From Siphonodentalium dalli (taxonomy: Eukaryota > Mollusca > Scaphopoda > Gadilida > Siphonodentaliidae): 64,000 nt of DNA. The notes below the pieces were generated by a model. It made no database searches. It worked only from the letters and a program-made list of their open reading frames with translations, and had not been told where the DNA came from. Both the position numbers and the translations under genes were made by a program. Below are positions 2,459 through 40,400 of the stretch, piece by piece. How positions within the stretch are numbered: the stretch's first letter is position 1; every line of letters starts with the position of its first letter. The stretch spans positions 3,844,001-3,908,000 of the forward strand of contig CP136061.1 of assembly GCA_032622095.1 (NCBI GenBank), in the 5' to 3' direction.

Positions 2459-2498
2459 GGACTTTTAACACTATGAATCACTGTAAATATGTACTTAC

Positions 2499-2822
2499 AT
2501 TTAATTTGATCATGTACATTCCTTTGGCGGTTCCACCAGAAGTCCCCAGTTCGAGAGCATGTAGCGTGGTTCCGTACAAGTAACAGACCCTGGTCTTTAC
2601 ATCGAACGTACTTCCAGCGCAATTACTATGATATAGACAGAGTTTGTAGCACCGAAGGATGTTCGGCGCCGATATATTCAGAAAGGTTGTACCAACAGGT
2701 GTGATATCCTTGACAATTTCAGGGTATTTGCTTCCGCATAGGTTTCCACGAACACACAGAACAAAGATTGTAAGTTGCAGTACCCGTGCGCAATCCACCT
2801 TCCTTGTGGGTTCAAACACCAT
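2499..2822 (-). CDS. Exon 1 of a second, tandem paralogue of the PAN-domain gene
   Basis: Nearly identical to 62437-62736, with the same phase-0 GTAAGT donor (first base 2498). The ATG used by the other copy is GTG here, so the first available start is 27 bases upstream, adding MVFEPTRKV before DCARV. About 810 bp that precede exon 1 in the other copy, TATA-like box included, are missing, and the upstream ATG was brought in by that junction. The signal-peptide core and PAN cysteines are intact. It lies 2.3 kb downstream of the stop of the six-exon gene, same strand; its other exons would lie left of the window. Could be a working gene with a longer N-terminus or a decaying copy. Confidence 0.65.
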
Positions 2823-3071
2823 AGGGACTATATTTTTGTGTTAATACTTGTTTCGTGAAGATCTATTTCAAAGAAGAGATGTCAGCCCGAGATTGCATGA
2901 TTTTTTAGACTTTGTTTTACCCGATATCTCAATACACAATGAATTGATTACCCAGGATAAGTTCAATGATTGTAAGCGACGCAAAACAAAATCGGCTCAC
3001 CAAAGTCACCCACATGCATTGTGAAATATATAACTAGCACCTTCACCTATCCTTGAAATATTTTATAAAGT

Positions 3072-5149: not shown

Positions 5150-8100
5150 CTGAAACATACATGATTTGTACAGTCTCAATAAGTAAGATCACTAACTCGC
5201 GGTGAATCCTCCATTTGGTCTCCGGAGGTCAAAGTTAAGAAGTAGCATCTATTTTAGCATATGGCTCCAGTCTGGGAATTCCCAAAATAAAATGGCAACA
5301 GTTCGCTACCGAATCGCAGGTGCGACAACTTCACAAAACTAATTAAACAATCACCATAAATACATACAATACGTAGGTTTCGCGCAGTAGATGGATTGTT
5401 TTAGCGTTATTTACAGCTGATTATATGGAAATTCTTTGTCTCACATGTGGGGCATTCATACTAGTATTTATAGATGTGGTAGGTATGGACACCCATATAC
5501 GTTCATGAAAAGTGACAACTGCCCATCAATTTGCAATACCTGCGGATGGATGACGTCATAGAATTGTGATTATATCACCATGGTAACGCATGCCATATGT
5601 GAACAGGTTCGTAAATACATTAGAACTCAATATATACTGTAACAGTTAACTTTATTTGCAATATTTCACCACAACAGTATATTGGCCAAATTCACACTCA
5701 AATAGTTAGCATTATATCCATCACGTCGTAATTTTAGCATAATTACGTGGTGATTAAGAATGTAATTAAAATGTGTACAATGAGCATAATGATGAGAAAA
5801 GACCAATAGTATGCACAAGAAGGCGTTATTTAACCCTTTACCCAACAAACCGGCCAAAACCGGCCAAACAAAGCTTCAACAGCCTAAAATATCTTCGGTC
5901 TGTCTCAATAGAACCATACAAATATGGATATCATTGGAACCGGCTCCTTGACCACATTGTGATAGTTACAGTTAGCCCTGTGTCAATGCATTCTCTTATA
6001 TATGCGAGTCGACCATAGGTCGCCTCGCATATATAAGAGAATGCATTGGCCTAAAAAAAATCTTTTTTAACACTTTTTACCATTTTTTCTTACATTCTTT
6101 AACAATTTTATAATTTTTAATGTGTTAAGCCAATGCATTCTCTTATATATGCGAGGCGACCTATGGTCGACTCGCATATATAAGAGAATGCATTGGCACA
6201 GGGCCGTTCTGTTGGGTAAAGGGTTAACTGAAATAGATCATCCCGCATTTAGGCTCACGTGTATTCAACACTGATTATGCTAATGAATTATGGGTAACTT
6301 TCAAAAAACAACTGCCAATGATCTCATTGCGTTCCCAAAATGGTTATGCATTTCAATGTCATGCATACAACATGCACTCGCAGCTATTATTATTGAAGTC
6401 GCAATATTGCGCGGCACAGTCAATTTCGTAACATTGCGTCGAAAATAGGAGACACTAGACGGATACCACAATGAAAATGTCGTTAGAAAGGGCAACAATC
6501 TTCTTTATTTCATAAACGTGTGTTATCGACATGTGTTTGTGATAAACAATAACAAACTAAATCAATCGGTACATGTGTATCTGCTTACAAACACCACACC
6601 TGTCGGCATTGTTCCGTCCACATTTTTGGGAAAACCCAAGGAAATCCCCCAATTAGTAATTGTGACGTCATACATGTGCTGTCTATATTTAGGCCGAGAA
6701 CATCTCATTGTGGCCGTATTTGTCAGGTCAGCGTGATGATATCCAAGTCGCTACCCAATAAAATCATTAGCATATCACCGTAAATATGGTATTATTGTCT
6801 GTTATTCCCAAAAAAATATTCTCTGTCGGATAAAGCGGGCTGCGGTGTTGAAAAAGTTAACTTTGGCTGTCAGACAAAACGTCTAAAGACTGACCAAGCA
6901 GCCAATACGCCAAGGATTTGATAGCAAACAATATGTAATCGGGGTTAACTATTAGATGGCTAGTGGCGTCTAACCACTGTGACCAAGAGATATAGACCCC
7001 TCGCGCTATGATAATCCACTTACTGATAAGCAGTTTAAAGGCCCACTTAATTTTCGAGTCTCCGATTATTATTTTTATAGTGACTTGATATACAGTTTTA
7101 ATAACAATCTATGTCATAAAATATGATTAAAATACTAAACTTCATCACTATTTGAAACATCTGTTTCGTAGAGGATGCCCACAGATAAATAGGAAACTGC
7201 TGAAGACTTCCCCCCTCTTGCATCCAGAATACAACAGAATTCAAACTTTTTCAATGAAAGGGGAATAACTCTATCTTTAATATATAGAGTTATTCCCCAT
7301 GCATTGAAAATAATACTGAATTTTACTTCAATCTTGATAACAAAACGCATTGGCAACTCAACAAAAACAACAATTCTACAGTTTATTACACCGGACAAGT
7401 TGACAATACAATGTTTTGGAGCTTCCTCTTTCAAATGGTATATAATATGGCATATATTTTATATAAAGTAATCTGGGGGTTCGAAAATTAAGTGGGCCTT
7501 TAAGAGAAACATAATTGTCGAAAGAACGCCTAGAACCCTAGAACCCTAGCTCAATAAACCGAAAGTCGTAGCATTCAAGTTTTATTTTCAAAACATGAAA
7601 ACCAGAAACTATACTGAAAGGTGAATTCAACCGAATGTTGCCACTTCGTACGTTGACGTTGTTTCCGCAAAAAACGTATTCACGGTAACATTTTAAATTC
7701 TTTGGGCACGCTTTGATAAATTGGTAGATACAATTGCATATATGCTATACATAAACTGTATTAATAATAAACAGACTAATCAAAGTTATGCGACCTGATA
7801 TACGAAATACTCACGAATGAATTGGTCAGCAGTACTAATTGTGGAGTAAAGGAATTGTGGATGTGTCAGCAAATCATCATACTGACAGTGATGGGTGGAT
7901 TTGAATTCCGAGACCATGATCCAATTAGGGTCGCAGTCGCACGAACACCATTTCTGTACTATGTAGAAATCACGCGGCAGTGTAGCCGTATGGACCCTGA
8001 AATGATTATATTAGTCTGTAGAAATCACGCGGTAGTGTAGACGTATGATCACTGTAATGATTATATTAGTCTGTGGAAATCACGCGGTACTGTAGCCGTA

Positions 8101-11100
8101 TGATCACTGTAATGATTATATTAGTATGCAGAAATCACATGGTAGTGTTGAGCCGTATGATCCCTGTAATTATTATATTCATCTAGTCTGTGCTACATAG
8201 AAACACGCGGCAGTGTAGCCATATGATCCCTGCAATGATTATATTAGTCTGTAGAAACCACGCGGTAGTGTAGCCGTGTGATCCCTGCAATGATTATATT
8301 AGTCTGTAGAAATCACGAGGTAGTGTAGACGTGTGATCCCTGTAATGATTATATTAGTATGCAGAAATCACATGGTAGTGTTGAGCCGTATGATCCCTGT
8401 AATTATTATATTCATCTAGTCTGTGCTACATAGAAACACGCGGCAGTGTAGCCATATGATCCCTGCAATGATTATATTAGTCTGTGGAAATCACACGGCA
8501 GTGTAGCCATATGATCCCTGCAATGATTATATTAGTCTGTGCTATGTGGAAATCACACGGCAGTGTAGCCATATGATCCCTGCAATGATTATATTAGTCT
8601 GTAGAAACCACGCGGCAGTGTAGCCGTATGATCCCTGCAATGATTATATTAATATGTGGAAATCACGCGGTAGAGTAGCCATATGATTCCTGCAATGATT
8701 ATATTAGTCAGTAGAAACCACGCGGTAGTGTAGACGTATGATCCCTGTAATGATTATATTAGTCTGTAGAAATCACACGGTAGTGTAGACGTATGATCCC
8801 TGTAATGATTATATTAGTCAGTAGAAACCACGCGGTAGTGTAGACGTATGATCCCTGTAATGATTATATTAGTCTGTAGAAATCACACGGTAGTGTAGAC
8901 GTATGATCCCTGTAATGATTATATTAGTCAGTAGAAATCACGCGGTACTGTAGCCGTATGATCCCTGCAATTATTATATTAGTCTATGGAAACCACACGG
9001 TAGTGTAGCCGTATGATCCCTGCAATTATTATATTAGTCTATGGAAACCACACGGTAGTGTAGCCGTATGATCCCTGCAATTATTATATTAGTCTATGGA
9101 AACCACACGGTAGTGTAGCCGTATGATCCCTGCAATTATTATATTAGTCTATGGAAATCACGCGGTACTGTAGCCGTATGATCCCTGCAATTATTATATT
9201 AGTCTGTAGAAATCACGCGGTACTGTAGCCGTATGATCCCTGCAATTATTATATTAGTCTATGGAAACCACACGGTAGTGTAGCCGTATGATCCCTGCAA
9301 TTATTATATTAGTCTATGGAAACCACACGGTAGTGTAGCCGTATGATCCCTGCAATTATTATATTAGTCTATGGAAATCACGCGGTACTGTAGCCGTATG
9401 ATCCCTGCAATTATTATATTAGTCTGTAGAAATCACACGGCAGTGTAGCCGTATGATCCCTGCAATTATTATATTAGTCTATGGAAATCACGCGGTACTG
9501 TAGCCGTATGATCCCTGCAATTATTATATTAGTCTGTAGAAATCACACGGCAGTGTAGCTGTATGATCCATGCAATGATTATATTAGTCTATGGAAACCA
9601 CACGGTAGTGTAGCCGTGTGATCCCTGTAATTATTATATTAGTCTATGGAAACCACACGGTAGTGTAGCCGTATGATCCCTACAATGATTATATTAGTCT
9701 GTAGAAATCACACGGTAGTGTAGCCGTGTGATCCCTGCAATGATTATATTAGTCAGTAGAAATCACGCGGTAGTGTAGCCGTGTGATCCCTGTAATTATT
9801 ATATTAGTCTATGGAAATCACGAGGTAGTGTAGCCGTGTGATCCCTGTAATGATTATATTAGTCTATGGAAACCACGCGGTAGTGTAGCCGTGTGATCCC
9901 TGTAATGATTATATTAGTCTGTGGAAATCACACGGCAGTGTAGCTGTATGATCCCTGTAATGATTATATTAGTCTATGGAAACCACGCGGTAGTGTAGCC
10001 GTATGATCCCTGTAATGATTATATTAGTCTGTGGAAATCACACGGCAGTGTAGCTGTATGATCCCTGTAATGATTATATTAGTCTATGGAAATCACGCGG
10101 TACTGTAGCCGTATGATCCCTGCAATTATTATATTAGTCTATGGAAACCACGCGGTAGTGTAGCCGTATGATCCATGCAATGATTATATTAGTCTGTAGA
10201 AACCACACGGTAGTGTAGCCGTATGATCCATGCAATGATTATATTAGTCTGTAGAAACCACACGGTAGTGTAGCCGTATGATCCCTGTAATGATTATATT
10301 AGTCTGTAGAAACCACACGGTAGTGTAGCCGTATGATCCATGCAATGATTATATTAGTCTGTAGAAACCACACGGTAGTGTAGCCGTATGATCCCTGTAA
10401 TGATTATATTAGTCTGTAGAAACCACACGGTAGTGTAGCCGTGTGATCCCTGTAATGATTATATTAGTCTGTAGAAACCACACGGTAGTGTAGCCGTATG
10501 ATCCATGCAATGATTATATTAGTCTGTAGAAACCACACGGTAGTGTAGCCGTGTGATCCCTGTAATGATTATATTAGTCTGTAGAAACCACGCGGTAGTG
10601 TAGCCGTGTGATCCCTGTAATGATTATATTAGTCTGTAGAAATCACACGGTAGTGTAGCCGTGTGATCCCTGTAATGATTATATTAGTCTGTGCTATGTA
10701 GAAATCACACGGTAGTGTAGCCGTATGATCCCTGTAATGATTATATTAGTCTGTAGAAATCACGCGGTAGTGTAGCCGTGTGATACCTCAATGATTATAT
10801 TAATCTGTAGAAATCACACGGTAGTGTAGCCGTATGATCCATGCAATGATTATATTAGTCTGTAGAAATCACGCGGTAGTGTAGCCGTGTGATCCCGTAA
10901 TGATTATATTAGTCTGTGGAAATCACGCGGTAGTGTAGCCGTATGATCCCTGCAATGATTATATTAGTCTGTGGAAATCACACGGTAGTGTAGCCGTATG
11001 ATACCTCAATTATTATATTAGTCTGTAGTAATCACGCGGTAGTGTAGCCGTATGATCCCTCAATGATTATATTAGTCAGTAGAAACCGCACGATATAGTG

Positions 11101-14100
11101 TTGCCGTATGATACCTCAATGATTATATTAATCTGTAAAAACCGCACGATATAGTGTTGCCGTATGATCCATGCAATGGTTATATTAGTCTATGCTATGT
11201 ATAAATAACACGGCAGTGTGGCCATATAGTCCCTGCAATTATTATATTAGTCTGTGGAAATCACGCGGCGGTGTAGCCGTATGCTACCTCAATGATTATA
11301 TTAATCTGTAAAAACCACGCGCTAGTGTTGCCGTATGATCCCTGCAATTATTATATTAGTCTATGGAAATCACGCGGTAATGTATCCGTATGATCCCTGT
11401 AATGATTATATTTGTCTGTTGAAATCACGCGGTAATGTATCCGTATGATCCCTGTAATGATTATATTAGTCTATGGAAATCACGCGGTAATGTATCCGTA
11501 TGATCCCTGTAATGATTATATTTGTCTGTTGAAATCACGCGGTAATGTATCCGTATGATCCCTGTAATGATTATATTAATCTGTTGAAATCACGCGGTAA
11601 TGTATCCGTATGATCCCTGTAATGATTATATTAGTCTGTGGAAATCACGCGGTAATGTATCCGTATGATCCCTGCAATAATTATATTAGTCTGTGCTATA
11701 TGTGGAAATCACACGGTAGTGTAGCCGTATGATCCATGCAATGATTATATTAGTCTGTGCTATGTGGAAATCACGCGGTACTGTAGCCGTATGATCCCTG
11801 TAATAATTATATTAGTCTGTAGACATCACGAGGTAGTGCAGACGTATGATCCCTGCAATTATTATATTAGTCTGTGCTATGTAGAAATAACGCGGTAATG
11901 TCGTATGATTCCTGACTTGTGATGTGGCATGGTGTCGAATGCCTTGGAAAAGTCTAAAATGGCAACATCGACTTTTATTTCTTGTATTGTCGAAGGAATG
12001 TCGTATGTCGTCGGTTGTTACAGCTAGCTGAGTCACACAAGAGTACTTTGATAGGAAGCCATGGTTGAACGATGTTAGAGTTTCGTGCTCATTTAGATGG
12101 TTAATTATATGACTGTATATGATATGTTCCAAGATCTTGTATGGAACGGAGGTCAGCGATATATGGGGCGATAGTTTTCCGCCTTATGTGTATCTCCGTT
12201 ATAGTAGATGCTGAATAAGTTAGCTAGTTTTCCGCCTTATGTGTATCTCCTTTATAGTAGATGCTGGATAAGTTAGCTAGTTTTCCGCCTTATGTGTATC
12301 TCCTTTCTAGTATATGCTGGATAAGTTAGCTAGTTTTCCGCCTTATGTGTATCTCCTTTCTAGTAGATGCTGGATAAGTTAGCTAGTTTTCACCCTTATG
12401 TGTATCTCCTTTATATTAGATGTTGGATAAGTTAGCTAGTTTTCCGCCTTATGTGCATCTCCTTTATATTAGATGTTGGATAAGTTAGCTAGTTTTCCGC
12501 CTTATGTGTATCTCCTTTATATTAGATGCTGGATAAGTTAGCTAGTTTTCCGCCTTATGTGTATGTGTATCTCCTTTATAGTAGATGCTGGATATGTTAG
12601 CTGATCTCCAGTCTAGGGGTAGTGTATCGGTTTTCAGTTAGGTTGTTGAATATTGGATTAGGGGTTAGGAATTAGCATGCTCAGTTGCACATTCTTTTTA
12701 TAACTCGGTTAGGCATATTTTCAGGCCCTGGATCTTGTGTGGTTTTTTGGTAGTAGTCTATCTACCTCTTTCTTTCTCATGATTATGTTTTCTATATTAG
12801 CCGTGGCTTTGGTCTTCAGTGATTGAATTTCTTCTCCGATGGCTCATCGGTGATGACTGATTTTAACTGTTGTAATATCGACTCATTCTTTTTTTCTTGA
12901 CGTAGCTCCAGAAGGGTTTGCTTTATTTTTGTTTAAGCCTTCGGTGTTGTTTTTGTGTGTGTCTCTCCACTCTTCCTGTCTGGTTGTCTATTTACATTCC
13001 TTCTGTATTAATTTATAATATGTCCATTGTCCTGTCATCTTGGCCCGGTTGTAAACTCGCGGCTTCTTCCTCAGCATATGTTTAACTGGGTGGTTAATCC
13101 ACGGTTGGTCTATGTCGTGTGCTTCGGTATTTGATGGTGTTTGTTTTAAGTCAGTTTTATGGCGTCCCAATTGCTTTATTGAAGTTGTAGCATTTCCGTG
13201 GTATTACTGGTTGGTATTGCGGTTTGGTTTCCATGTCTGTCCCCACGATGTTGTGATCCGAGATGCCAGATATTGTGTCGACAGTCATCACTAATGACAA
13301 GGTTGCTCTTCTCTCCGTAGGTTTCATTTGCATTTGAGAGAGATGTTGTTCTGGTGTTTGTGATGTCGACAAAGTTGTTGTACTTCGGTGTCATTGGCAC
13401 TTCTGCTGACGTTTAGTGTTTCCCAATTAATGGATGGGCAATTCAAATCACCCGTAAATAGGATGTTCTTATTCTTGGGGGATCGTATTCAGTAACTCCT
13501 ATAGTTTGTTCATGTCGTGGAGGATTATGTGTGCCATGTAGAAATTTCCAGCATGTCTGTCCGTTTGTGCATTTTTATTTTAACCCACTCTAGTTCGCAA
13601 TCTGGGATCTTTTTCATGGATGTTAAAGAGATTTGAGTCATTTGTACTGGTATCTGATGCCTCTCTCTGCTTCTTGGTATGATACAGAGTGGCTTGTATA
13701 CAGCATATTCATGTGGTGTTTGGCTTGGTTATCCATGACAGTGACATTTCTAAGCATTATTTGTGGTACCAAAAGCTGCACTCATCGCAGCATATGCCGC
13801 TGGTGCTCCGGGTGACAGGGATATCACAGAATCCACATGGGTACATATCTTGTGGTTTTGCGGATGGTCCTGGTGGGGAGTGACATCTCCAGATATTAGC
13901 AAGAGGAGAAGTATGTTTTTCAGTCTTCTACATTTGGTTGGGATGGTTATTGGTCTCCGACCTGTGTGTGACATACTGGTCTGCAGCATATTGTATGTTA
14001 CTTGCTAACTGTATCGTGATTTGATTTGAGATGGCGTTTACAAAGATGATGGTAAGTTTGAGATATTGCACATACTGAAACATTGCAACAAGGGTAGCAC

Positions 14101-16434
14101 AGAAGAACCCGCACACTGACTTGTGCAATGATGCAGTCCCTGACGCAATTCTTCTATTGTTCTTCCCAGCAGTCAGTCTTTATTTGTTCGGTGATTTCCT
14201 TCAACCCGTATTCTGCTAATGTGTTGATGGGATCAATCCCGTCGGTATATAAGTTGAAGTTGTGTTAACCCATGTTCAGTAGGCAGTCCGTTTTTGTTAC
14301 AATTGAGTGTCTTTTTAGATCACTGATGAACTCTGTGGAGTGTCTTCGATTTATTATGTTGTATTCCTTTATTTTCATATTAAGGTAGTATATAGCTTTG
14401 ACCAGTTTCTTATCTTGATCTTCAAATTATGATGGGTTCTCGTGGCCCCTACTCTTGTTGAGTAAGGTGGTAGAGTTGATTGGTACGTCTAATATTGTGG
14501 TTTTATTACCGGTGTGTCTCTTGGTCACGCACGCTATTTTTTAGAGTTTGGATATTGCACTGTGGGCTGCGGAGTTGTCGTATGATGTGAGAGATGCATT
14601 TGCCATTAATTGTGTAAGGACGCAGGTCCTGAGCCATACATAGAGCCACACATAAAGCCATACCGGTCGTTCAGGCGTTTCGCTGTCAGGTTTTACCAAC
14701 ATGTGGGTGTTATTTCTTATACAGGAAGTCGTGCTGGTTTTCCTTCCTTTTTCGCACTTCCAGATGATCTGGTTTGTTCGTACTTGCAAGGGAGTTCCCT
14801 CTTCTAATATCTGCTCTTGCTGTCAGATTGCAGTACCGGTCGGTGTGTATAGTTGTGATCCTTTTGGTGGTTCAGTTTCTTTCCTAATACATTTTCTTAG
14901 TTTTCCAAGCAACATCGGTGCAAGAAAAAAGGTACTGTAAAGTAGTGAAAATAGTTTTGCCTTCACCAGGCGGCCCCGAAAAAGGTTTAAAGTGTTGTCA
15001 AACACTCCGGTAGGAGAATAATCTTGCTCAAAGTAGTACATTTTATAAATATTATATCCAAATTGACAACAAGCACCGTCAGTCTTATATATTAATTAAA
15101 TTCTGGGACTCTCGATGGCGAAATCGTTTTCACTAGTTTATCGCAGATAGTTGCTGCCCGAATCGAGAAGTTCATATTTACAATTGAGCGTAGTTCAGAC
15201 GGTGTTTTCAGATGGTCGATTTCTTTGAGATTTTGGATGATGTTAGTAGAATGCTACATTCTCCCAGTAGACATAACGCCTGGGTACTAACTTATCAGTT
15301 TCACGCAGCGAACAAGTCCATATTATGTCTTTAAATAAATGTGATATTGTGTCCTTTACGTGGGATTCTGTAAAAGTATCGCAGATCGTTGAATTAGATG
15401 ATAACTTATTTCTGAAACGCCGAGATGTTAGAAAAGGCGTCATGTCACTCGCGCATACCATCCAGGCTGTTGTCAATTCCCTGGATCTACATGTTCGTAT
15501 CGTTAACTAGTGACTTACGTTCCGTTTAACATCCACTTCAATTTGGAACCTACGTCTCTGGGCAGGTCAGACCAGCTGGTAGAATTCAGCCTCTCCGGTG
15601 TAAACCATGACATACGATTGGCGCCAACGGTGTCAAACAACAGCCATGCCACTATATCACGCCCAGTGTACAACACGATGGCTGCCTAGGCTACAGAATT
15701 ATTACATGCGTACATTATCGGCGTAACTAGCCCGGATACGATGGTTTCCGAAATACCAGACCTGGGAATGTCAATTACTGATATTTGAATATGTAGGTTT
15801 CATAAATAAAACTAAAAGATCTCCATTTCTCGCAAAAGCTTATAGTACCTCAATAGTGCACAACTTTCGCACAATGAACTATGCACTCATAAATAATATA
15901 ACTAAAGTTTAGTCAAACTGTAACCCAACGTTTAGTCAACTGAATCCGAATAAACGTTGGGTTAGAGCTGTTAACTAAACAAGTTGGGTTAGATACAAGT
16001 AACGGACCATTGGGTTATGGTAAACCAACTTTGTAACCAAACGTTAGGTTAAATTAATAAAACATTGGGTTTGAAGTAACTCAACATGGGGTTAGAGAAA
16101 ACATATGTCAATACATAACTATATTTCATCTCAATGAATGAGTTTTTACCATATTATCTGAGATTCTGATCATTTATTAAGGTTTCTCAAAAATAATTCC
16201 AATGAATGGATTCATTTCGGATCTTAAAATCTTAATAGAGAGCTATTGAATTAAACATGACTTCGAACCTAGTATGTAATATGAAAGTCCGAAACGAGGT
16301 ATTACTTTTACACGGAAAAACAATTCCGATAAAATTTGATAAATGAAACATACGAATGTCTTTCTATACAAAAAATAATATTTGACTAACAACAAAATCA
16401 CACTCCTTACTTGCACGCTCATATATCTATCTCT

Positions 16435-19400: not shown

Positions 19401-22400
19401 AAGCCTACCCAGTCGATGGTCTGCATCGTCGCTTGATTCACGGGCTCTACATGCTCGCACTTCTCTTCAGTTTTGAGAAATTTGGATACGGCTGTCTGCT
19501 TAAAAATGAAGTTACCTTAGCAACAGTATGTGATTTCTGATAATTCTGGAAAATGATCATATATGAACTATTTTAGTGATAACGGTGGACTTATTGGTGG
19601 ATACAGTTATATAACATTATTTTATACGACGAGCCGTCAGTAGTGATCTCAAGGTTAAAGCTCACTGTGAAAGGTCAAGTTCGTTGAATAAAAATTGTTT
19701 TAATCACTTCATGTCATATTTTTGTCTTTATGAGGAACCTTACTCAATATTGCATCGTATTGATATTTAGTTACATTATGGAGACCATACACTATATGAT
19801 TATTACTTGTGTGAGAGATTTTACGAAATATGTGACCTGGTACTAAAATGAGAATTGCTCTTCCAATAAACGGCCACAACATTAGTGGGGGAATCGGATA
19901 GAGGCAATTTTATAATAAAAGCATCACAGTTGGCACACATGTATATCACATGATTATAAGTCATTTTTGTGTATGATCCGAAGCTTGAAGTTGTACACCG
20001 TTGCCATGACAACCATTTTTATGAAACACACGAATTTCACCAAACTCAACCCATTATGCATTGATAACGCCCAGTAACCTCACGGAAAACTGTTCATTGT
20101 GTATCTAATTATATTGGACATGTATCAGACCATATACTTGTTATAAAATATACATTTTATGTTTGGGTAGATTCAAAAAGCTATCCCCAACAGTATGGTA
20201 ACAGGACGCACGTACACCAATAATAATATATATTTAACAAGGCTGAGAATCGCAGATGGCTTTCGTCGAGTGTTTCTGGTCTAACAGTGAATTTGACAGA
20301 ATTTTTTTTAAATTGTGATTTATTTTCGAGATTGTTGTGGGGCAGGGATCTGTTCAGTTGACATGCTTTAAAGTTATCGCCCTAGATTGCTAAAGTACAA
20401 AATTAGGTAACTCAGGTAAAATATCTGCTTTGCGAAATCGATTGAGATATTGCTATGAAAAATCCATTTATCAACATTGTATCAAATCGGTCGACGTTTG
20501 TTCAAGATATCACGATAACGAAATTACAATTTAAAACAAAAATAGAAATAAGTCTTACTCTGGGCCATAGTTTATGTGTGTAGCTGCCGCATACAGTCGC
20601 AAACCCACATACCATAACTTGTAAAAAATATTGAGATATAAGCCCGCCCACCCGCCCGCACGCACGGTCGTTTGCCCACCGCCGCCCTCCGAAAGGTATA
20701 TTGTTTTGAATAAAAATTCGACTGACTAAAAATTGGGAAATGATGGTTGAGCACCGTTTCAATAGAACACAAAAAGCATATATAAGGCAGACGTGGGGAG
20801 GGATTGAGGTAACAGAGAGTGAAATTCAAGTTAATATAGTTGGAGAATAAGAGCGGGAAGGAAAAGATGTTTCTTAGACCATGCTTCACTATCTGCATGT
20901 GGTGGTTTGATTGTATTATGCAATTATTCTTTATACTCTAAGGAATGTAATATGTTAACCTACATGTAGTTACATTTGTTGCCAGTCTTCTCTTAATGTC
21001 TGTTCTCATTTCATATTCAGTGATTGTGATATGTGAAACTCAATGTTGCTGATCTCTCATGATCCAGAAAAAAATCCTTTAGTTAAAATGTATTGCTGCT
21101 CTGATTTCAGCAAAACATGCGTCTATATCTTAGTGCACTGTATTGTATCAAACAACCATTATCATGCAATGGAATGACCCATCCAAATATTGCAATCCGT
21201 GTGTGTGGGTTTATCATCGAAAATCATCGGATGGTGGGCATGTCAGTCCCATATATGAATTTTGTCTCGGAGAGATCAACATGAAGTTATCGACACGTAT
21301 AACAGCACTGTGGTTCCCCGTCTGCATTTATATCGCCATCACATCTGTAACTGGCTGAACCACTGTGGTTCCCCGTCTTCATTTATATCGCCATCACATC
21401 TGTAACTGGCTGAACCACTGTGGTTCCCCGTCTGCATTTATATCGCCATCACATCTGTAACTGGCTGAACCACTGTGGTTCCCCGTCTTCATTTATATCG
21501 CCATCACATCTGTAACTGGCTGAACCAGTTTATATCGCCATCACATCTGTAACTGGCTGAACCAGTTTATATCGCCATCACATCTGTAACTGGCTGAACC
21601 AGTTTATATCGCCATCACATCTGTAACTGGCTGAACCAGTTTATATCGCCATCACATCTGTAACTGGCTGAACCAGTTTATATCGCCATCACATCTGTAA
21701 CTGGCTGAACCAGTTTATATCGCCATCACATCTGTAACTGGCTGAACCAGTTTATATCGCCATCACATCTGTAACTGGCTGAACCAGTTTATATCGCCAT
21801 CACATCTGTAACTGGCTGAACCAGTTTATATCGCCATCACATCTGTAACTGGCTGAACCAGTTTATATCGCCATCACATCTGTAACTGGCTGAACCAGTT
21901 TATATCGCCATCACATCTGTAACTGGCTGAACCAGTTTATATCGCCATCACATCTGTAACTGGCTGAACCAGTTTATATCGCCATCACATCTGTAACTGG
22001 CTGAACCAGTTTATATCGCCATCACATCTGTAACTGGCTGAACCAGTTTATATCGCCATCACATCTGTAACTGGCTGAACCAGTTTATATCGCCATCACA
22101 TCTGTAACTGGCTGAACCAGTTTATATCGCCATCACATCTGTAACTGGCTGAACCAGTTTATATCGCCATCACATCTGTAACTGGCTGAACCAGTTTATA
22201 TCGCCATCACATCTGTAACTGGCTGAACCAGTTTATATCGCCATCACATCTGTAACTGGCTGAACCAGTTTATATCGCCATCACATCTGTAACTGGCTGA
22301 ACCAGTTTATATCGCCATCACATCTGTAACTGGCTGAACCAGTTTATATCGCCATCACATCTGTAACTGGCTGAACCAGTTTATATCGCCATCACATCTG

Positions 22401-25400
22401 TAACTGGCTGAACCAGTTTATATCGCCATCACATCTGTAACTGGCTGAACCAGTTTATATCGCCATCACATCTGTAACTGGCTGAACCAGTTTATATCGC
22501 CATCACATCTGTAACTGGCTGAACCAGTTTATATCGCCATCACATCTGTAACTGGCTGAACCAGTTTATATCGCCATCACATCTGTAACTGGCTGAACCA
22601 GTTTATATCGCCATCACATCTGTAACTGGCTGAACCAGTTTATATCGCCATCACATCTGTAACTGGCTGAACCAGTTTATATCGCCATCACATCTGTAAC
22701 TGGCTGAACCAGTTTATATCGCCATCACATCTGTAACTGGCTGAACCAGTTTATATCGCCATCACATCTGTAACTGGCTGAACCAGTTTATATCGCCATC
22801 ACATCTGTAACTGGCTGAACCAGTTTATATCGCCATCACATCTGTAACTGGCTGAACCAGTTTATATCGCCATCACATCTGTAACTGGCTGAACCAGTTT
22901 ATATCGCCATCACATCTGTAACTGGCTGAACCAGTTTATATCGCCATCACATCTGTAACTGGCTGAACCAGTTTATATCGCCATCACATCTGTAACTGGC
23001 TGAACCAGTTTATATCGCCATCACATCTGTAACTGGCTGAACCAGTTTATATCGCCATCACATCTGTAACTGGCTGAACCAGTTTATATCGCCATCACAT
23101 CTGTAACTGGCTGAACCAGTTTATATCGCCATCACATCTGTAACTGGCTGAACCAGTTTATATCGCCATCACATCTGTAACTGGCTGAACCAGTTTATAT
23201 CGCCATCACATCTGTAACTGGCTGAACCAGTTTATATCGCCATCACATCTGTAACTGGCTGAACCAGTTTATATCGCCATCACATCTGTAACTGGCTGAA
23301 CCAGTTTATATCGCCATCACATCTGTAACTGGCTGAACCAGTTTATATCGCCATCACATCTGTAACTGGCTGAACCAGTTTATATCGCCATCACATCTGT
23401 AACTGGCTGAACCAGTTTATATCGCCATCACATCTGTAACTGGCTGAACCAGTTTATATCGCCATCACATCTGTAACTGGCTGAACCAGTTTATATCGCC
23501 ATCACATCTGTAACTGGCTGAACCAGTTTATATCGCCATCACATCTGTAACTGGCTGAACCAGTTTATATCGCCATCACATCTGTAACTGGCTGAACCAG
23601 TTTATATCGCCATCACATCTGTAACTGGCTGAACCAGTTTATATCGCCATCACATCTGTAACTGGCTGAACCAGTTTATATCGCCATCACATCTGTAACT
23701 GGCTGAACCAGTTTTCGTTGTTTTCAAAAAAAGAAAACACGTTCAATACTAAGTCCCCGGAAAACTGCTAATTTCTGAAGTCATATATAACAATCCTACC
23801 CCAACATCGTGAATAACCGTTAACGGCTACTCTTTTGGTGGCGATCAGTGATAATGCCATACTGAACACAAAGTACGTAGCGCTGCTGGTGAGGCATCCT
23901 CGCGAGTGAGAGTTTAATCTGATCAACTGACCATCAACAGTGCCTTTGCCGATAGTCCACAGTTATTAATGTGGGGGCAAGTGCATATCTTGTATACTTG
24001 TTAGTAGAAGCAAGCCACTATGATTTTCATAACCTATCCAGTTTGGAGGGATTTTAAAGACTCTATTCCAATGTTAATCCAACCGGAAGTAGAACAGGAT
24101 GAGAGGTGAAAACGGCATGTAAATCACCCTCACTCAACCTTCAAAACGAAAATCTCTAAACAACCCACAATGTCTTTCTTGAGCACATCTGCTGTTTCGA
24201 CTGAACCAGTAAACTGCTAATTTCTGAAGTTGTCATATATAACAATCCTACGCCAACACAAATCTAAACATCGACTGAAACCACACCCGTGCGTACATGA
24301 AGACATAACTACCAGCGATAACACTCGGTACCCAACCAACCCTCATAGTCATACCACCAACAGTCTGGCCTCGGCTGCGTCCTCATCCATCCTCATCTGG
24401 GCATCACAACACAATCAGGTCAACGGGTTCTGAGACTCACACATGAGTGTAAGGCGGGCATTGCACCACCGAGAGTTGGGGAGCCCCGACCGACCTTAAG
24501 TCAACCGGTCGGCATTGCACACCCTTCCTAGAGTTGAGCCCGTAGTATAAGCCCGGAATACAACAGACTAAGGCAACGGAGTTCAAGCATGCACCAACTT
24601 GGACACTAGTTTACAACAAACCACTAAATAAAAAGATATCAACTAAGTTAAACAAACAGAACTCGTACTACAATCAAGGTAAGTCTTCTCGCTGGTCCGC
24701 TTTTGGAACGGGGGGGGGCTTTGCTTCCTGCCAGGGTGGCATGTAACCCATACTCCACAAGCAAGCATCAATGACTAGAAAACACTCACAACCAAACTCA
24801 ACAAACGCTCTTCAGCGGCACTATATCACTCAACCGTGGGTTGTAGGAGAGGGCTTACAGCCCTTTCAAATCTTCCCGGGGGGATCTTCCCAAACCCAAA
24901 CTCCAAACTCAGGCGTGACAATTGTGTCATCAAGACAAAAACATTGGAGGCCAATCTTCGATTTTGTATTAGTCATGCCTCAGTATGGGGTGGACGGGTA
25001 GCAAGTGACACGTTACCGGCTTCTGTTTAAACCGCGATCAGTGGTAATGTCATACTTATCACGCAGTACGTAGCGCTGTTGGTGATGCATCCTCGTGAGT
25101 GAGAGTTTAGTCTGAACAAAAGACCATAGGCATTGCCTTTGTCGACAGTCCACAGTTTTCGCCAGTATAACAAGTCCAGACAGACTGAAGCAATTACTGG
25201 TACGCTATAATTTTTGCTCTATAAAGTGCACGCATCAATCGGACTACGTTCATAACCAATTGTTCTGATATAAGCGTACACAGAGGATAAAGTATCTAAT
25301 ATTTTTTGATTGGGAACATGTACCAAAAATCATCAAATGATCGACCGAGACAAGTGTTTACTTTCGCGAGTGGGTTGACAGGAGCCGAAATAAACATATG

Positions 25401-28400
25401 TCTCAGTCACGATTGAGATATTTATAACATAAAGTTCAACACACACGATCGCATAGAGGTCACCCTGAAGATCCATCTGAAATTTGTTGACGATCAGATG
25501 AGACATGTGATATGTAGGGTGTGCTAACATAAATTGTTGACGGACGGACGGACGACAAGCCATGGCAGATTAGAGATGTGATCTGTAGGGTGTGCTAAGA
25601 TAAATATTTTAACGGACGACAAGCCATGGCAATACCTCAAATTAAGTTGAGCTAAAAAGTTATTGACTGTATTGTTCAAAGTCTTAAACCAGATAATTGA
25701 AGTTGTTTCCGCGGAAACTAGTTTTCCCTCATACATAAATTTTAGTTAGATTTCCTCCACTATTGCTTCACAATCGCGACCGCAATTTTTGCAAAGTTGC
25801 ACAGTTTCATCATTCAGTCCAGTCTGTGAAGATTTAGCGAAATATACTGGCTCGCATTACAGAAAGGGTTCGAAGCGAAGTATGCACATACATTAAACCT
25901 CTACTTGTAGCTAATAGGCAGCATAGAAACTCTGACCTATAACAATGCCTACTTGTGTATAAGTGAATATTTTGAAGAAATAGAAGCAATATAGTGTGTA
26001 CTTATTGCTTGTGTAAGCCTGTTTAGTGCCAGCCAAACAATCACCTGTTGACAAAATACTTATCTTGTTGCACTTGAGTAGTCGGGTGGATCCATAGCAA
26101 CGGTTGTCAAGGAATTTTAAGCTAACTAAAACTTCGTCACAACATAAACAATCTTGCTAGGAGAATATATCATGTGTCGGGAAAGATCGATAATCAACAT
26201 TCGAACAATTTCGCAAAAATAATTCACATTTAGCAAAAAACATTTTCATATGGCACAAGTTTTGGCAAGTCACTTTTTAATTCCTCAAGAAAGTTGAAAC
26301 AATATTGGTCAATCACTACCATTCATTTCGATAAACTCTTACAGTATAATTATATTAGTGGTATTTTATATGGTTTAGGAACAGTTAACAACTCTATTAA
26401 GATGCAGTTAATCTGATAGCATTAATTTAGTATTGAAGGGTAGTGGGATTACCCGTATTTAGTGTGGTGGTGTTTACATAGCTAATCCTCTTATGATGCG
26501 CCCTTCTGATGAAGCAATCCTTCTATCATATTATTGTTCGGTTATTGGTTTATTGCTGTATGATAAACCACAATAGAGTTGTGAGTATAGTTACTAACTA
26601 ACTGCTTTCTTAACGATATCAAAAGTCGTTCAAATCGAGAATTTCGAAACATAAGACTTAAAGTTTGCAAAAAATGATGCTATCAAAGATAGCATTTAGC
26701 AAATTCTAAAATAATGTGGCAAAAAAAAATTTCATTTGCCAAATTATTTGGCAAAAGTCAATTTCGGTCCAACGCGAACCCGTATCACGAACAGTGTCAT
26801 GCACATGAACGTGTTTATTATGTTGCTTAATTTATTATCATTAAACAAGATATTAATATCAGTATTTCTACAAAATTAGGCTATTAATAGAACTCTTTAT
26901 ATGGCACTACCCCAACATTCCCTGGCCTACAGTCAAGTTGCAACATATATATCAGGATCACCGAGTATAGTTTTGTCTAGCCCAATTTATTTTTGAAATA
27001 AAACAATTGAACACAAATTCCACCACATTACATAAATTGGTTTTTGCTTAAAATTGTGGCCATTTTGAATCTATCCATATACAAAAGGTATATGTTCTAA
27101 CAAGTATATGGTCTGATGCATGTCCAATACAAATAGATGCATAGTAAACAGGTTCCCATGAGGTTACTAGGATTAGCAATGCATAATGGCTAGATTTTGG
27201 CAAAAATCCCAGGTGTTTTCACCAAAATGGTTGCCATACCAACGGTGTACTTTTTCAATCTTCGGATCACATTCAAAAACGATGTACATGTGTCAACTTT
27301 GATGCTTTTACCGTGAAATTCACGATTTATGTCCTCTATCCGCCCCACTAATGTGTGGTCATTGTTTATTGAATTTGTCATTTTATGTGTCATGGGTGTA
27401 GGCCCGGTCACATGTTTCGTAAAATCTTTCACACAAGTATTGATCATCCTATGGATCCTATGATCTTCAGAGTGTACCAAAATAATAATATTATGCAACA
27501 AATTGGAGCAGGTTCACCATAAAGACTAATAATTTGACGTAAAGTGATAAAAAAAACAGCATTTTCTTTTACGATGACCTTGACCTTTCAGTGACCTTGA
27601 CCCTTGAGATGAGTGCTGGCGGCCCGTTATGGAGAATATATACATATAAATATTATTATATAACTATATCCACCAAAATGTATACCGTTATCACAAATAT
27701 ACTTCATATATGATAATTTTTCAGAATTCTCAGAAATCACACGCGTTTGCTATGGTAACACCATATTGTAGGCGACTAATCGATAAGAAGCTTGTCAACA
27801 TTGGTTTCCAATGTCTCGATCCAGTATATGGGCTTTACGAACAAAATGTTCCACAAAATCCCCAAAATCTTTTGCGAAAAGCATTTTTTTTTTACAAGCC
27901 ACAGGCAAGATACTATAGAGAATATAGGCTGCTAAACGAAATTGAGCTTACTTGTCAGGTGAAACATAAAGAGCGTTCGCGTCGTTTTGTTCGTTTCTGT
28001 TCGGTATGTGACTGCGCACAGATAAAGAGCGTTTGAGTCGTTGTTTGCCAGATAAGGTAAAGATAAAGAGCATCTTAATGGGGATTTGACGTCATAACGA
28101 CGGGAGACGGGACCCAGACCGTATTACCCGGAGTGCCGAAATACATATCCTTGCCAAATTCCATGGCAATCGGTGCAGAAACGTGGACGGCTACAAGGAA
28201 CACATACACAGAGAGATACACACACCCATTCGCATTTATATATTAGAATATATACACTACCGTTTTCTGTGTGCTTATAACTGCTTACTTTGCCGATCGA
28301 GCCCGGAGTCCGCCAATCGTTAACCACCCTGCTCCTATAGACGTCGGTGCACCGTGGACCCGTGCAGATCATCGATTCGTTATTCCATGCATTGAGAACA

Positions 28401-31400
28401 TGAACTCCCGTTTCTCTGTAAACCCCAAATACCAGCTCCATTCCATTGACTTGAAATTAGACAGGGTGTGTGGTATGACGCAAATCTATATAATTATGAT
28501 AATATATGGTTCGATCTGTATCTATACATTTATTTAACCTGCGAGTTCATGGTTCCCTATTCTGTAAGTGCATGTTTCCCTATTCTGCGAATGCATGGTT
28601 CCCTATTCTGCGAATGCATGGTTCCCTATTCTGCGAGTGCATGGTTCCCTATTCTGTAAGTGCATGGTTCGCTATTCTGCGAATGCATTGCTCCCTATTC
28701 TGCGAGTGCATGGTTCCCTATTATGTAAGTGCATGGTTCCCTATTCTGTGACTGCATGGTTCCCTATTCTGCGTGTGCATGGTTCCCTATTATGTAAGTG
28801 CATGGTTCCCTATTATGCGAGTGCATGGTTCCCTAGTATGTGAGTGCATGGTTCCCTATTCTGTAAGTGCATGGTTCCCTATTATGTAAGTGCATGGTTC
28901 CCTATTCTGTAAGTGTATGGTTCCCTATTATGTGAGTGCATGGTTCCCTATTTATTATGTGAGTGCATGGTTCCCTATTCTGTAAGTGGATGGTTCCCTA
29001 TTCTGCGAATTCATTGTTTCCTATTCTGCGAGTGCATGGTTCCCTATTCTGCGAGTGCATGGTGAAGTGAACAGGCAGCGATCAGATGTTGGCTGTGATA
29101 AATTTGTGAGAATATTTATCGTCGTAAATGGCGAATTTCTTTGGAAACGCGTATAATAATAAGAATATCTAGTATGTTATGAGTGGATACGGACATTTAT
29201 GTCATTCGCGGACGAGACAAATGAAAACGCAATAAACATTTATCTCACTCAATCATGGCATAATTTTCGGTATCCACTCAATAGATATCCTGTGTATATT
29301 ACCAGTGCTTCCTTTCGACGAACACGTGTAACCACCAGGCTTCGTCACACTTCTTGTAATCATTGAATCATCGCCGCAAAGACGAACGTCACTCATATCA
29401 TAATCCTGGTGAAAAAAGATAGAATGTGACATAAACGGCATAGTAGATATACGGACAGAAAAATAAAGTACAACCGAAATAAAAAAAAAACGGAATATCG
29501 TGCTTGGCAATGTACCAGAAACACACTGGGTATATATTCGGGTGGTAAATAGTTTCAGGGCGGTAAATAGTTGCCGTGCGGTAAATAGTTGCAGTTCGGT
29601 AAATAGTTGCACACCGGTAAATAGCTGCAAGCCGACGATAAGCACTTTTCAGTGGGTACATCTAAATATTATGGGTAGAACTCTATTTCTTTGCGTCATG
29701 GAAGGATTATTATTTGTATTGGGCATCTGGTCGAGTTAAGTAATAACCCAGCATGTGAATCGTACGTGTATTATAATGGAGAAATGTACATAGAACACGT
29801 GACTCTCGAAAGTTTTCCCAACATAGCTAGTTTAAATTAATGTTTAGTCCACGAGTAAGCATTCTGTGTTGCATACATATATCGTCCGATATGATTGGTA
29901 TAGTAGCCTGTCATTTGTAAACAAAAAAATGGGTTTCGTAAAAACATTTGGGGAATTTTGGCAACATATTTTTTCTTAAAGCCTATATACTGGAGACATT
30001 GGTTAAAATGCTTCTTGTTGCTTAGTTGCTTATTATTGATATATAAAAAGCAAAACAGGGGTGCTGTGTGGAAAAAATGAGGGAATTGAATCATAATAGA
30101 CATGGACGGTCAATTTCAATCGGAAAATAAGAAGATAGCAATCATTGAACGGACGATAGCGAAATACTGAACCAATATCTGGTCATGTAAAGTTGTAAAC
30201 TTAGACGATTTATACCAGATATTCTCTGAGAAATGGGGCGGCGAGATGAACTATGGCCACTTGAAGCTAATAAACTACCTTACTCGCGAAAGTCGATCCC
30301 ATAAATAACACAAGATACGTTTCTTTGGTGAAAAGGAACCAAGATATATAACAAAAGTAAGCTTTTATAGATACACTCATAACCACATTTGGCAAGGATG
30401 CATCTCCCCACTACGGTCACAACTCTTCATAACACTAATTGACGAAGCTCGTTCCATGTGGAAATCCTTTCCCCATGCTGGCCCAAGCGTGCATCATTGG
30501 TAATTCAAATCCGGAACATGCCAACTGAGATATAGAGTTCAAAGGATGTTACATATGGAGTGACGGCTGGACGGACACACGGATGTACGGAAGTCATTTC
30601 TATGTCCCTACAACACTTCTTCTGTGGGGCATAATTATGTTTTCCCATGGGCACATGGTCGCTGTCCTCTGGAGGATTACAAACAATGTTAAAGCACCAG
30701 GTTTTACACGATTCTTATCAATTTAGTAAAGCGCTCTATTTTTGACAAAATTAAATGGCCACGGTCGTCACAGTCTAACAGAATCATGTATATAACAGCC
30801 CGTAAGTGGTAAATTCCCCAAATAAATACCGAACGTGCGAGGGCTATATTTGCCTATAATTTCCAACTCCATTATGTGAATGACCCACAAAAACGACGGG
30901 CGTGCAGCAAACGGTGCTGTGCCAGTAACTTATATCACTGTGTGTCGCATGTTGCGCGCATTATTTCATTGATAGTTTAGAATAATTTAATAGGCAACCA
31001 GAGACAATACTTGTTAATCAGTCCTGTAACAGAGATTGGCACCTGGAAGAGATTGAGTTCGTGCATGTGTATCCGCTTGAAATCCTAACTTATACATGCA
31101 GTTATCCAAATGCTTTAAATTTGTTATGTGTTTTACTCACATAAAAATTCACACCAAATGCTGTGCCACTTTTCGATTAATATTTGCTGATTATTTTGAT
31201 ATGTGGATGATATAACAGTATAGTTTTAGTTGTCCGATTGGTATCAAATGACATATGGATATCTCATATGATAATATAGGTAACTTTGGGGTCAATTTCT
31301 GGTGGAGTTATCCCTTTTATCGACTTAGAGATTTCTAATTATTTTGATGTCGGGATAATAATAAATAATTCACTGGTCCGATGTAGAATTTATTAATCCT

Positions 31401-37400: not shown

Positions 37401-40400
37401 AGATGATGTTTTCTATGGAGTGGTAGGGTCGATCTGCCTGAGATTTTGGCGATGTAGTAGAATCCTACATTCCCCCAGTTGTCATACTGCCTGAATACTA
37501 TCTTAAAAGTTTAACGCACCCGAACAAGTCCATAATATGTCTTTAAAGTCTGAAAGATTAAAATTTATGCACAAAAATCAAGTATGTTCAATAAACCATA
37601 ATAAAATCAAGTACATCAAACTGTTGTGCCGATGGCAATTTTATCTATGAAAATGTATATGGAAGGGGTGTGTCATATTTGTATATGAAAAGCACAGACC
37701 ATATATACAGGGGGTGGTGGGAAAAAAAGCTCCTGACACATAGGCTATTTTTTTCAGTTTGACCTATCTTAGCACCCACCACCCCAATATGTATCCACTC
37801 CCTTTTTCGAAGATTTGTGACAAATATCTACTCGATAACATAACCTTACAATTAATCACTTATGCTTCCGTTATTGATACTATACGATGCCTTGTTACAC
37901 AGCTTGAGACACGTGGGTTTTTTATTTTTAAATGTATATTATTTATGTTTTATGTGTTTCGTTTTTATCAACTTGTTCGACACCTTAAAGGCACACCTTT
38001 TTTTTCTTACTGGCCCTGACTGCGAACCTACATTTATAAACATTGAAAATCCAGAAATGTACTGAGGTCACAGTTATTGCACATTTTAAAATGTTCTTAA
38101 TGTCCTCAATTGTCTTACTAAATCGTCAAGTCACACAAAACACATCATTTGAGAACAATAGAATGAAATGTAACACTTGGTTAATATACATTTACACATC
38201 GATACAGCCTTTGATGTGAACTTGGGTGCCCTTGTGTGATCTCCTTCTCTGCATGGTGTGGAACATCATAAATGAAGATGCGGTAGAACATTATATATAC
38301 AAGTTGATAGAATTGATTAAATGAGTCTGTTATTCATATGTCAGTTTCCATTTATATTAACACAATGTGAACATGGTGTACCTAGTTTTATGTTTGTTGT
38401 TATCAATTTTTGTTTTGCAAAGATTTTTTATGATACGTAGCAGATAGTGACAATTTGTGTTCGGGTCACAATCTGGAACAGTGGTGAATTCAATGCATCC
38501 AGCAGAGGGGTTGAGTATGGGTTCTGACGTGATACCCCACTCATATATAACACTATATGTTGACATAGGACATTATATGTGGTATATACTTCAGTATGCG
38601 ATGTTTATTGCCATGAATGGGTCAAAATTGATGATCTATTTTGAAAAACAGGCATGAGGGGAAAATATTGCAGCTTGTGGAAAAATCAGATTTTTGAGTT
38701 GATGGTGATCCACCCACCACCGCCTACGTGTCTGGAACATTTCCACACCACCCCCTGGATTATAGGCTATTAATCAATCAGAGCACAGTTCATTCCGCGA
38801 GTTTCCTCCCGCATCCATTGGGGGGGGGCATATTTACACGACAACTCGCACGATTTGCGACGTGGCTGGAGGTTCTCTGTTGAGTGTGTCTCGAGCTTCC
38901 CAACTGTTGAACAGTTCCAACCTAACACCCCCATATTGTTGGATAATTTCAAACTGATGGCCATATTAGTCCAAACAATATTGACATGAAGTAAGTCAAT
39001 ACTCGAGCTGTGGTTTAAAAAACATAAAAGTTCACATTAAATATTGGTTTGAAACTCACAGCATTGATCAATTTTAACATATATTTGGTCTGAAATTCCA
39101 ACTTTTGGCTAAAGTTGGTGATGAGTGGGACACACACAAACCAACCGTCTCCACGATGTGTCGGTGACATCGCAGAAATCTGACGTGTTAACGCATCAAT
39201 ATCGCCGAACATGCCTGTTTTGCATAATATACGAAACTATCTTCTATCATTCAGTTTTGGGTCCCGATTTTCGTCGCAAATGGTGCGGGTATGTTGTTGT
39301 GATCACCGTGCAACGATGGTTCTATCGGTAAAACAGATCACATTCCATCTTATAATATTAAATATGAATGAAACTACTTATCCAAATTGATTGTGTTGTT
39401 ATTCTAGCACAATGAGACTACTTGCGCGCTATTCTCCCGCAATGCTCGAATTATAATGCATCTATATAATATGCATTATCTTCTTGGAGAGAATCATTGA
39501 CATATCCATGATCCTGGCTTTCGATCGTCTGCAATCCATCTCACACGAGAACTTAACTGCGCTACTTCTAGAAAGTACGACCCTTTGTGAATGCACAAGG
39601 GATTGTTCTAACTCCGAGGAACTGACCTCTAATCCCGCTGTGTTTATTCTATACACGCGTGTAACGCAATGCGCCCCTGACATATGATTCTCTTGCCATT
39701 TGTTGCCATATTTGTGTATATATATTGTATTCCTTATAAATGTATAGTGTATATAATCCCACAAAGGAGGTATTAAAGATATATATAATAGTGGTGAATA
39801 AAAGCTAAGTTGACCCAATGCGGATACGGTATAAATGTGGGATTACAGTCAACTGCATCATATATTTATACCGTATTGATCGTGGTCGTAATAAGTATTT
39901 GGCACACATCAGAACAAAATATCTCTCTTACTATCACGATAAATTATATCAGCTGAAAAAGCAATGTATACAGCAATACACCCATATTTGACAAACCCAC
40001 TGACAATGAATCCCGAAGAAGGACCATGCAGTTTGGCTAACAACATGAATCACGAACATATTGCCTACGATACCAACATAAAGAGATTCATATAAGAACT
40101 ATACAGACCCACTGCACACTATTAAAGTATACCCGTCAATATACGCGCCTGACAACTTTTGAACGTAAAAATTACGGTCATGCTGCAGCATAATTATTCC
40201 ACGATTCAAAACCGTTTTGGGTAACTGTCAGACTGTAATCCGTAACTGCCAGACTGTAATCCGTAACTGTCAGACTGTAATCGGTAACTGTCAGACTGTA
40301 ATCCGTAACTGCCATACTGTAATCCGTAACTGTCAGACTGTAATCGGTAACTGTCATACTGTAATCCGTAACTGTCAGACTGTAATCCGTAACTGTCAGA

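Follow-up and report, generated by a model that had tools for sequence, protein, structure and literature searches.

The 64,000-nucleotide stretch analysed here (the window; positions 3,844,001 to 3,908,000 of contig CP136061.1 of Siphonodentalium dalli) contains, in an intron on its minus strand, a 55-bp tandem array that is made of copies of a gene's own 3' splice site and ends in the working exon, exon 5. The array belongs to a kind of repeat already described, the mirage-type minisatellite; its copy number, the phylum in which it occurs and the apparent commonness of such arrays are new. Four copies of the gene bear it (the array loci): that of the window and those at C1:17.92 Mb, 3.74 Mb and 1.67-1.68 Mb. 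The relevant parts of the window copy are listed below.

7815-7996, minus strand: exon 5 (182 nt), with AG before it, the donor GTGAGT after it and its start within the terminal array unit.
7965..8019, minus strand: terminal unit, comprising the real branch-like word and acceptor and the first 32 nt of exon 5 (wraparound alignment).
8020..11901, minus strand: array of 69 full decoy units and a further incomplete one, with a unit length of 55 bp or, in some cases, about 62 bp (Tandem Repeats Finder (TRF), wraparound alignment and AG counts).
11906..12156, minus strand: sequence adjoining the far end of the array, common to the four array loci (100%, 98.0% and 92.7/87.9% identity in the other three).
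15513..15518, minus strand: exon 4 donor, GTAAGT (from the sequence).
15519-15685, minus strand: exon 4 (167 nt), the upstream partner of exon 5, with a single acceptor in the window copy (from the sequence).

TRF places the array at 7962-11875, with 70.1 copies, 88% matches and a score of 5202, and wraparound alignment resolves it into 70 units, namely 69 full decoys and the terminal real unit, with a partial decoy at the far end. It forms the last part of the intron between exons 4 and 5, and only its terminal acceptor has a frame that stays open through to the exon 5 donor. Each unit runs from a branch-like CTAAT through (T/G/A)CAG to the first 32 nt of exon 5. The tandem array and the 55-bp unit of the original prediction are confirmed (69 full decoys and one partial; about 72 were predicted), and the exon share is corrected from 34 to 32 nt. 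In the longer units of about 62 bp, the exon-derived part is read as about 44 nt, and homology to the exon reaches ACAGA, the point where unit and exon diverge; the 55-bp units are missing 7 bp between two TAC words. From this alignment, the exon homology of the units formerly extended to about 44 nt. The open reading frame in 11906..12156 reads FSKAFDTMPHHK, which we take to resemble the reverse transcriptase of a long interspersed nuclear element.

The 62-residue protein sequence of exon 5 is encoded at 21 places in the 2.2-Gb genome and that of exon 4, with a sister copy's version as the query, at 40; internal stops occur in 0/21 and 0/40 of these, and each array of the four has an exon 4 match upstream. 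The phase of exon 4 joins the two exons, by our reading of the sequence, as ...NGT-V-HTATLPRDFY. Judged by its open frame at 21 of 21 places, 7815-7996 is a real exon, as originally proposed, and the converse view of it is unsupported. No Pfam family was matched by exons 4 and 5 of the window. DUF1604 was rejected as the identity of the protein; its match in a sister copy lies below the cut-off (13.3 versus 25 bits).

Exons 4 and 5 are open in the window, 17.92-Mb and 3.74-Mb copies. Between the 17.92-Mb and 3.74-Mb copies, the two exons together contain 15.5 differences in 74.8 synonymous sites and 14.5 in 270.2 nonsynonymous sites, which gives a ratio of nonsynonymous to synonymous divergence (dN/dS) of 0.23 (Fisher p 1.1e-4 for the contrast, from rounded counts). 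The ratio is 0.26 between the window and 3.74-Mb copies, and the window and 17.92-Mb copies have 0 synonymous and 2 nonsynonymous differences. For exon 5, dN/dS is below 1 in those comparisons that have synonymous differences. In most comparisons, therefore, the substitution pattern indicates that array-bearing copies are under purifying selection with the array in place, the 1.68-Mb copy excepted: its exon 4 is frameshifted close to the end, 8.5 kb separate its array from exon 5, and its dN/dS relative to the 3.74-Mb copy is 0.93.

Three sister loci, at 3.59, 1.78 and 75.8 Mb, of which the first two do not differ from each other in exons 4 and 5, have no exon 5 repeat in the 400 bp upstream of the exon. 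Their exon 5 has a homologous start, matching the decoy consensus at 25, 25 and 26 of 32 nt, that is preceded by an ordinary pyrimidine-rich acceptor. Because these array-less sisters share the exon edge behind an ordinary acceptor, the exon predates the array and its edge is the source from which the array was made. Together with the alignment, this upholds the original view that the unit consists of the 3' splice site and the exon start of this very gene and that the real exon is terminal. In the sister loci it is instead the acceptor of exon 4 that has been amplified, in 73-bp units; the decoys, which precede the real exon, number 4, 4 and 12. The flank of these exon 4 arrays retains ...TATTGTTAATAA and the exon ...ACACTGTTGGCG, and the unit junction is ACACTGTTAATAA, letters that suggest that a shared TGTT may have served the first duplication. 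Among the relatives examined (20/21 exon 5 places and 27/40 exon 4 places, several of them near-identical copies), acceptor repeats are present at four exon 5 places and three exon 4 places, one event each, and one exon 5 relative (L037, C9:201.84 Mb) has a donor-side array. The exon 4 acceptor arrays and the L037 array are cases independent of the exon 5 array.

A genome search with the unit alone gave at least 85 hits, and the location of 85/85 within the four array loci rules out chance resemblance; a further search gave 127 hits, confined to the four array loci and the three sister loci. Since the far-end flank is common to all four array loci, the array arose once, before the four copies split. 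The arrays now comprise 70.1 copies in the window, 318.1 over 17.6 kb at 17.92 Mb, 35.1 at 3.74 Mb and 76.3 at 1.67-1.68 Mb (TRF). In the next intron, the window and 17.92-Mb loci share 96.8% identity over 824 bp, yet their copy numbers differ 4.5-fold; the two loci may be recent duplicates and are less likely to be misplaced haplotypes. Identity is lower for the 3.74-Mb and 1.68-Mb loci, at 89.6% and 89.2% over 316 bp. Distinct units number 52/70 in the window array and 195/319 in the 17.92-Mb array. Units resemble those of their own locus in excess of the share of that locus (observed/expected 0.52/0.14, 0.79/0.64, 0.28/0.07 and 0.38/0.16 in the four loci), a pattern that would fit concerted evolution.

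Exon 5 of the 1.68-Mb copy differs from that of the 3.74-Mb copy at 8/44 array-covered bases versus 1/138 others (p 5e-5), and the comparison of the 17.92-Mb and 3.74-Mb copies gives no excess in array-covered bases (5/44 versus 13/138). As a lead, this contrast suggests exchange between array and exon in the 1.68-Mb copy. We also observed that much of the exon 5 start variant of that copy is present in a decoy 8.5 kb upstream (C1:1.68 Mb; L013, L014 and L029).

The acceptor AG had been described as kept in essentially every unit; in the window it is retained in 61/70, with 8 units reading CAT and 1 without the A. In the other three array loci, where the count takes in units of 40 or more aligned columns and leaves out one shorter unit per locus, AG is retained in 291/319, 34/35 and 75/78. 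Ranked by conservation among 54 dinucleotide positions, AG stands 32nd in the window and 20th in the pooled set of 502 units; it is not specially conserved, and these alignments give no sign of selection on the decoys. The proposal that decoys are selected for titrating splicing factors or setting expression finds no support in this rank or in copy numbers that range from about 35 to 318 within the copies of one gene. Codon-like constraint in the exon part of the decoys was considered and set aside: conservation of third positions is slightly below that of second positions in the four loci, but in the window first positions do not exceed third ones (0.906 and 0.931), so that nothing clear emerged.

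Use of a decoy was correctly predicted to lead to an early stop: from each of the 60 decoy AGs tested in the window (60/60), the frame runs into a stop short of the exon 5 donor (for 46 AGs, at codon index 15), and the same holds for 290/290, 33/33 and 75/75 in the other exon 5 arrays. In the exon 4 arrays, 4/4, 4/4 and 12/12 decoy AGs likewise lead to a stop ahead of the donor. Because units inherit any stop that their founder had, the stops do not provide separate evidence of design. The pyrimidine tract has been lost in the array-bearing copies: among 17 positions, the real acceptors have 9 pyrimidines (window) and 8 (3.74 Mb), the decoy consensus has 8, and eight hand-picked family acceptors have 9 to 13.

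As a comparison set, 40 exons of the unrelated phosphatase family PF00102, hand-picked from about 150 listed matches (a small sample, with some exons from one gene), were used; boundaries were inferred from GT/AG, and each was compared with its flanks. Boundary repeats are present at 9/40 exons, four on the acceptor side and five on the donor side (8 at a stricter threshold). A clear stretch of exon is copied in six (L072, L077 and L100 on the donor side; L090, L091 and L102 on the acceptor side) and a few exon bases in three (L067, L078 and L089); L090 and L102 are related exons, probably representing one event. In the background, 252 non-exon windows from 12 family loci, repeats are found in 17 upstream and 17 downstream at a threshold of 20, and in 15 and 13 at a threshold of 28. 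At p 0.17, the 9/80 phosphatase boundaries do not differ significantly from the 34/504 sides of these windows. This background replaced a first estimate (63 and 64 of 237) from a pool that was rich in arrays and included the window. Short tandem duplication seems to be common in the genome, with exon edges affected about as often as elsewhere, or somewhat more. One donor-side phosphatase-gene array (L072 393-753, C3:251.66 Mb) has 66-bp units of 22 open codons; there, a downstream decoy donor, if used, would add in-frame repeats.

The arrangement had been thought undescribed, but it is matched by the mirages of amphioxus, minisatellite-like copies of exon-intron boundaries in Adh3 and the globin genes BflGb6/BflGb9 (PMC3087553). 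A further paper names Adh, TnC and PGBD5 as mirage cases (PMC3902484). In BflGb6, units of 150-160 bp are present in 3 or 6 copies and splicing is regular by reverse transcription PCR (RT-PCR); the units of Adh3 are 10-72 bp (PMC3087553). In the amphioxus mirages and the window array alike, tandem boundary copies of variable length stand beside the true exon. Four of the features by which mirages are recognized recur here: units lie across the exon-intron boundary, the copies are intronic with the authentic boundary kept as the terminal unit, the splice signal is present in many but not all units, and length is unstable, as seen between gene copies (TRF, about 35 to about 318). For the Adh mirages of amphioxus, somatic instability is among the class features. 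The amphioxus mirages lie on the acceptor or donor side and are reported without disturbance of regular splicing; unlike BflGb6, the arrays described here reach about 318 copies and 17.6 kb, in a lophotrochozoan. The lophotrochozoan assignment follows from a Hox homeodomain at C7:77.88 Mb that is followed by NLAKLTGP, with KLTGP at positions 64-68, the Lox5 signature reported for lophotrochozoans and flatworms and as absent in chordates (PMC5431905). Mollusc haemocyanin, tried as a taxon marker, matched neither this genome nor any control genome and so carries no weight for the assignment. Our literature search, with most subscription papers outside its scope, gave no lophotrochozoan report of such arrays, and amphioxus were the only animals found with mirages under that name; the available parts of PMC4039745, PMC2206037 and PMC2812944 hold no comparable exon-side array.

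Two other systems share features with the array. The minisatellite of human IFI6 (6-16; Turri 1995) has multiple donors, and its downstream units are used, giving variant isoforms (PMC4526556). It resembles the window array in bearing many splice-site copies at an exon edge, but the copies in IFI6 are donors that give variant isoforms, whereas those in the window are acceptors whose use would give stops; the stop behind each tested decoy argues against variant proteins of the IFI6 type. Intron gain by tandem genomic duplication, as in the RdRp case in potato (PMC4974935) and as also proposed from mirages (PMC3087553), likewise involves tandem duplication across splice signals, but there a new intron appears inside a gene, whereas here an existing intron has been lengthened.

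We consider it probable that the array is a minisatellite of the mirage type that expanded by tandem duplication, is tolerated in the intron and has no function, with exon definition picking the last acceptor. A short tandem duplication across the acceptor of intron 4 and exon 5 in a multi-copy gene would have turned the first copy into intron while the second remained in use as the exon, and unequal exchange or slippage would then have multiplied the intronic copies to tens or hundreds. By exon definition, the spliceosome would take the acceptor nearest the strong exon 5 donor; the decoys look locally as good as the real site but have no such donor nearby. The array would be tolerated because the extra copies are all intronic and exon definition selects the terminal acceptor. 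Several points weigh against this explanation. The correct splicing of the array-bearing gene is inferred from its sequence. The 1.68-Mb copy is probably decaying, as its frameshift and dN/dS suggest, so some array-bearing copies would not be healthy. The boundary rate in the phosphatase exons is nominally above background (9/80 versus 34/504, p 0.17), and enrichment is possible; gains at two exon boundaries in one small gene family could reflect a local factor favouring them. Finally, the intron side of the first exon 5 duplication is not visible.

An alternative with some slight chance of being right is that the array is a regulatory decoy that binds splicing factors or yields stop-bearing transcripts, so that output would fall with copy number. 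In its favour are the early stops behind every tested decoy AG, in exon 5 and exon 4 arrays alike, real acceptors that look locally no better than decoys (8-9 versus 8 pyrimidines of 17), and the acquisition of such arrays by two exons in one family. However, AG is kept no better than other positions and is lost in 9/70 window units, the stops are inherited from the founder unit, copy number is erratic, and the unrelated phosphatase genes also have boundary repeats. A slightly slimmer prospect is that the array-bearing genes are dead copies that would tolerate anything. The exon 4 frameshift and the 8.5-kb gap between array and exon in the 1.68-Mb copy would suit such genes, but exons 4 and 5 are open in the other three copies and, across the two exons, dN/dS is 0.23 (17.92-Mb) and 0.26 (window) relative to the 3.74-Mb copy.

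That a satellite came first and had its last unit captured by the exon is very unlikely and has been largely refuted: the terminal unit does form part of the exon, but in the array-less sisters the homologous start follows an ordinary acceptor, and the unit is confined to the four array loci (85/85 of at least 85 hits). It is more improbable still that assembly artefacts or misplaced haplotypes underlie part of the copies and lengths. The 96.8% identity of the window and 17.92-Mb loci in the next intron is a level possible between haplotypes of a polymorphic invertebrate, but the 3.74-Mb and 1.68-Mb loci have the same array at greater divergence (89.6% and 89.2%), and many units are distinct (52/70 and 195/319).

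Other repeats were observed in the window. The largest by TRF is a 33-bp array at 41436-49308 with 238.6 copies and 97% matches. At 21306-23714, a 55-bp array of 4 copies leads into a 37-bp array of 60.1 copies with 100% matches; the 55-bp unit is readable on the minus strand as SASYRCDGDINADGEPQ. A 23-bp array of 22.7 copies at 28238-29063 (minus strand) stops some 100 bp short of a stretch that is conserved at the protein level in sister loci and is probably another exon of the array-bearing gene. A 21-bp array of 14.8 copies occupies 40221-41060, where a short related copy at 40992-41060 resembles the sister loci. An open frame at 2478-2840 (minus strand) has a PAN domain (PF00024, 24.6 bits; cut-off 21.4).

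The genome thus holds rows of near-identical acceptors or donors beside working exons, built several times. It is a long shot that splice-boundary satellites stand at a sizeable share of exons and that some, the present one among them, are length-tuned poison arrays in which copy number sets the amount of transcript lost through decoy splicing with stops; if this were true, such arrays would be a fast-mutating dial on gene output. The copies of one gene provide a natural copy-number series (about 35, 70, 76 and 318) in which the spliceosome's choice among look-alike acceptors is testable. The pyrimidine counts suggest that the acceptors do not differ in their local signals; if so, that choice must rest on the downstream donor or the exon body. 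The arrays extend mirages beyond amphioxus, as a potential source of exon change and intron growth.

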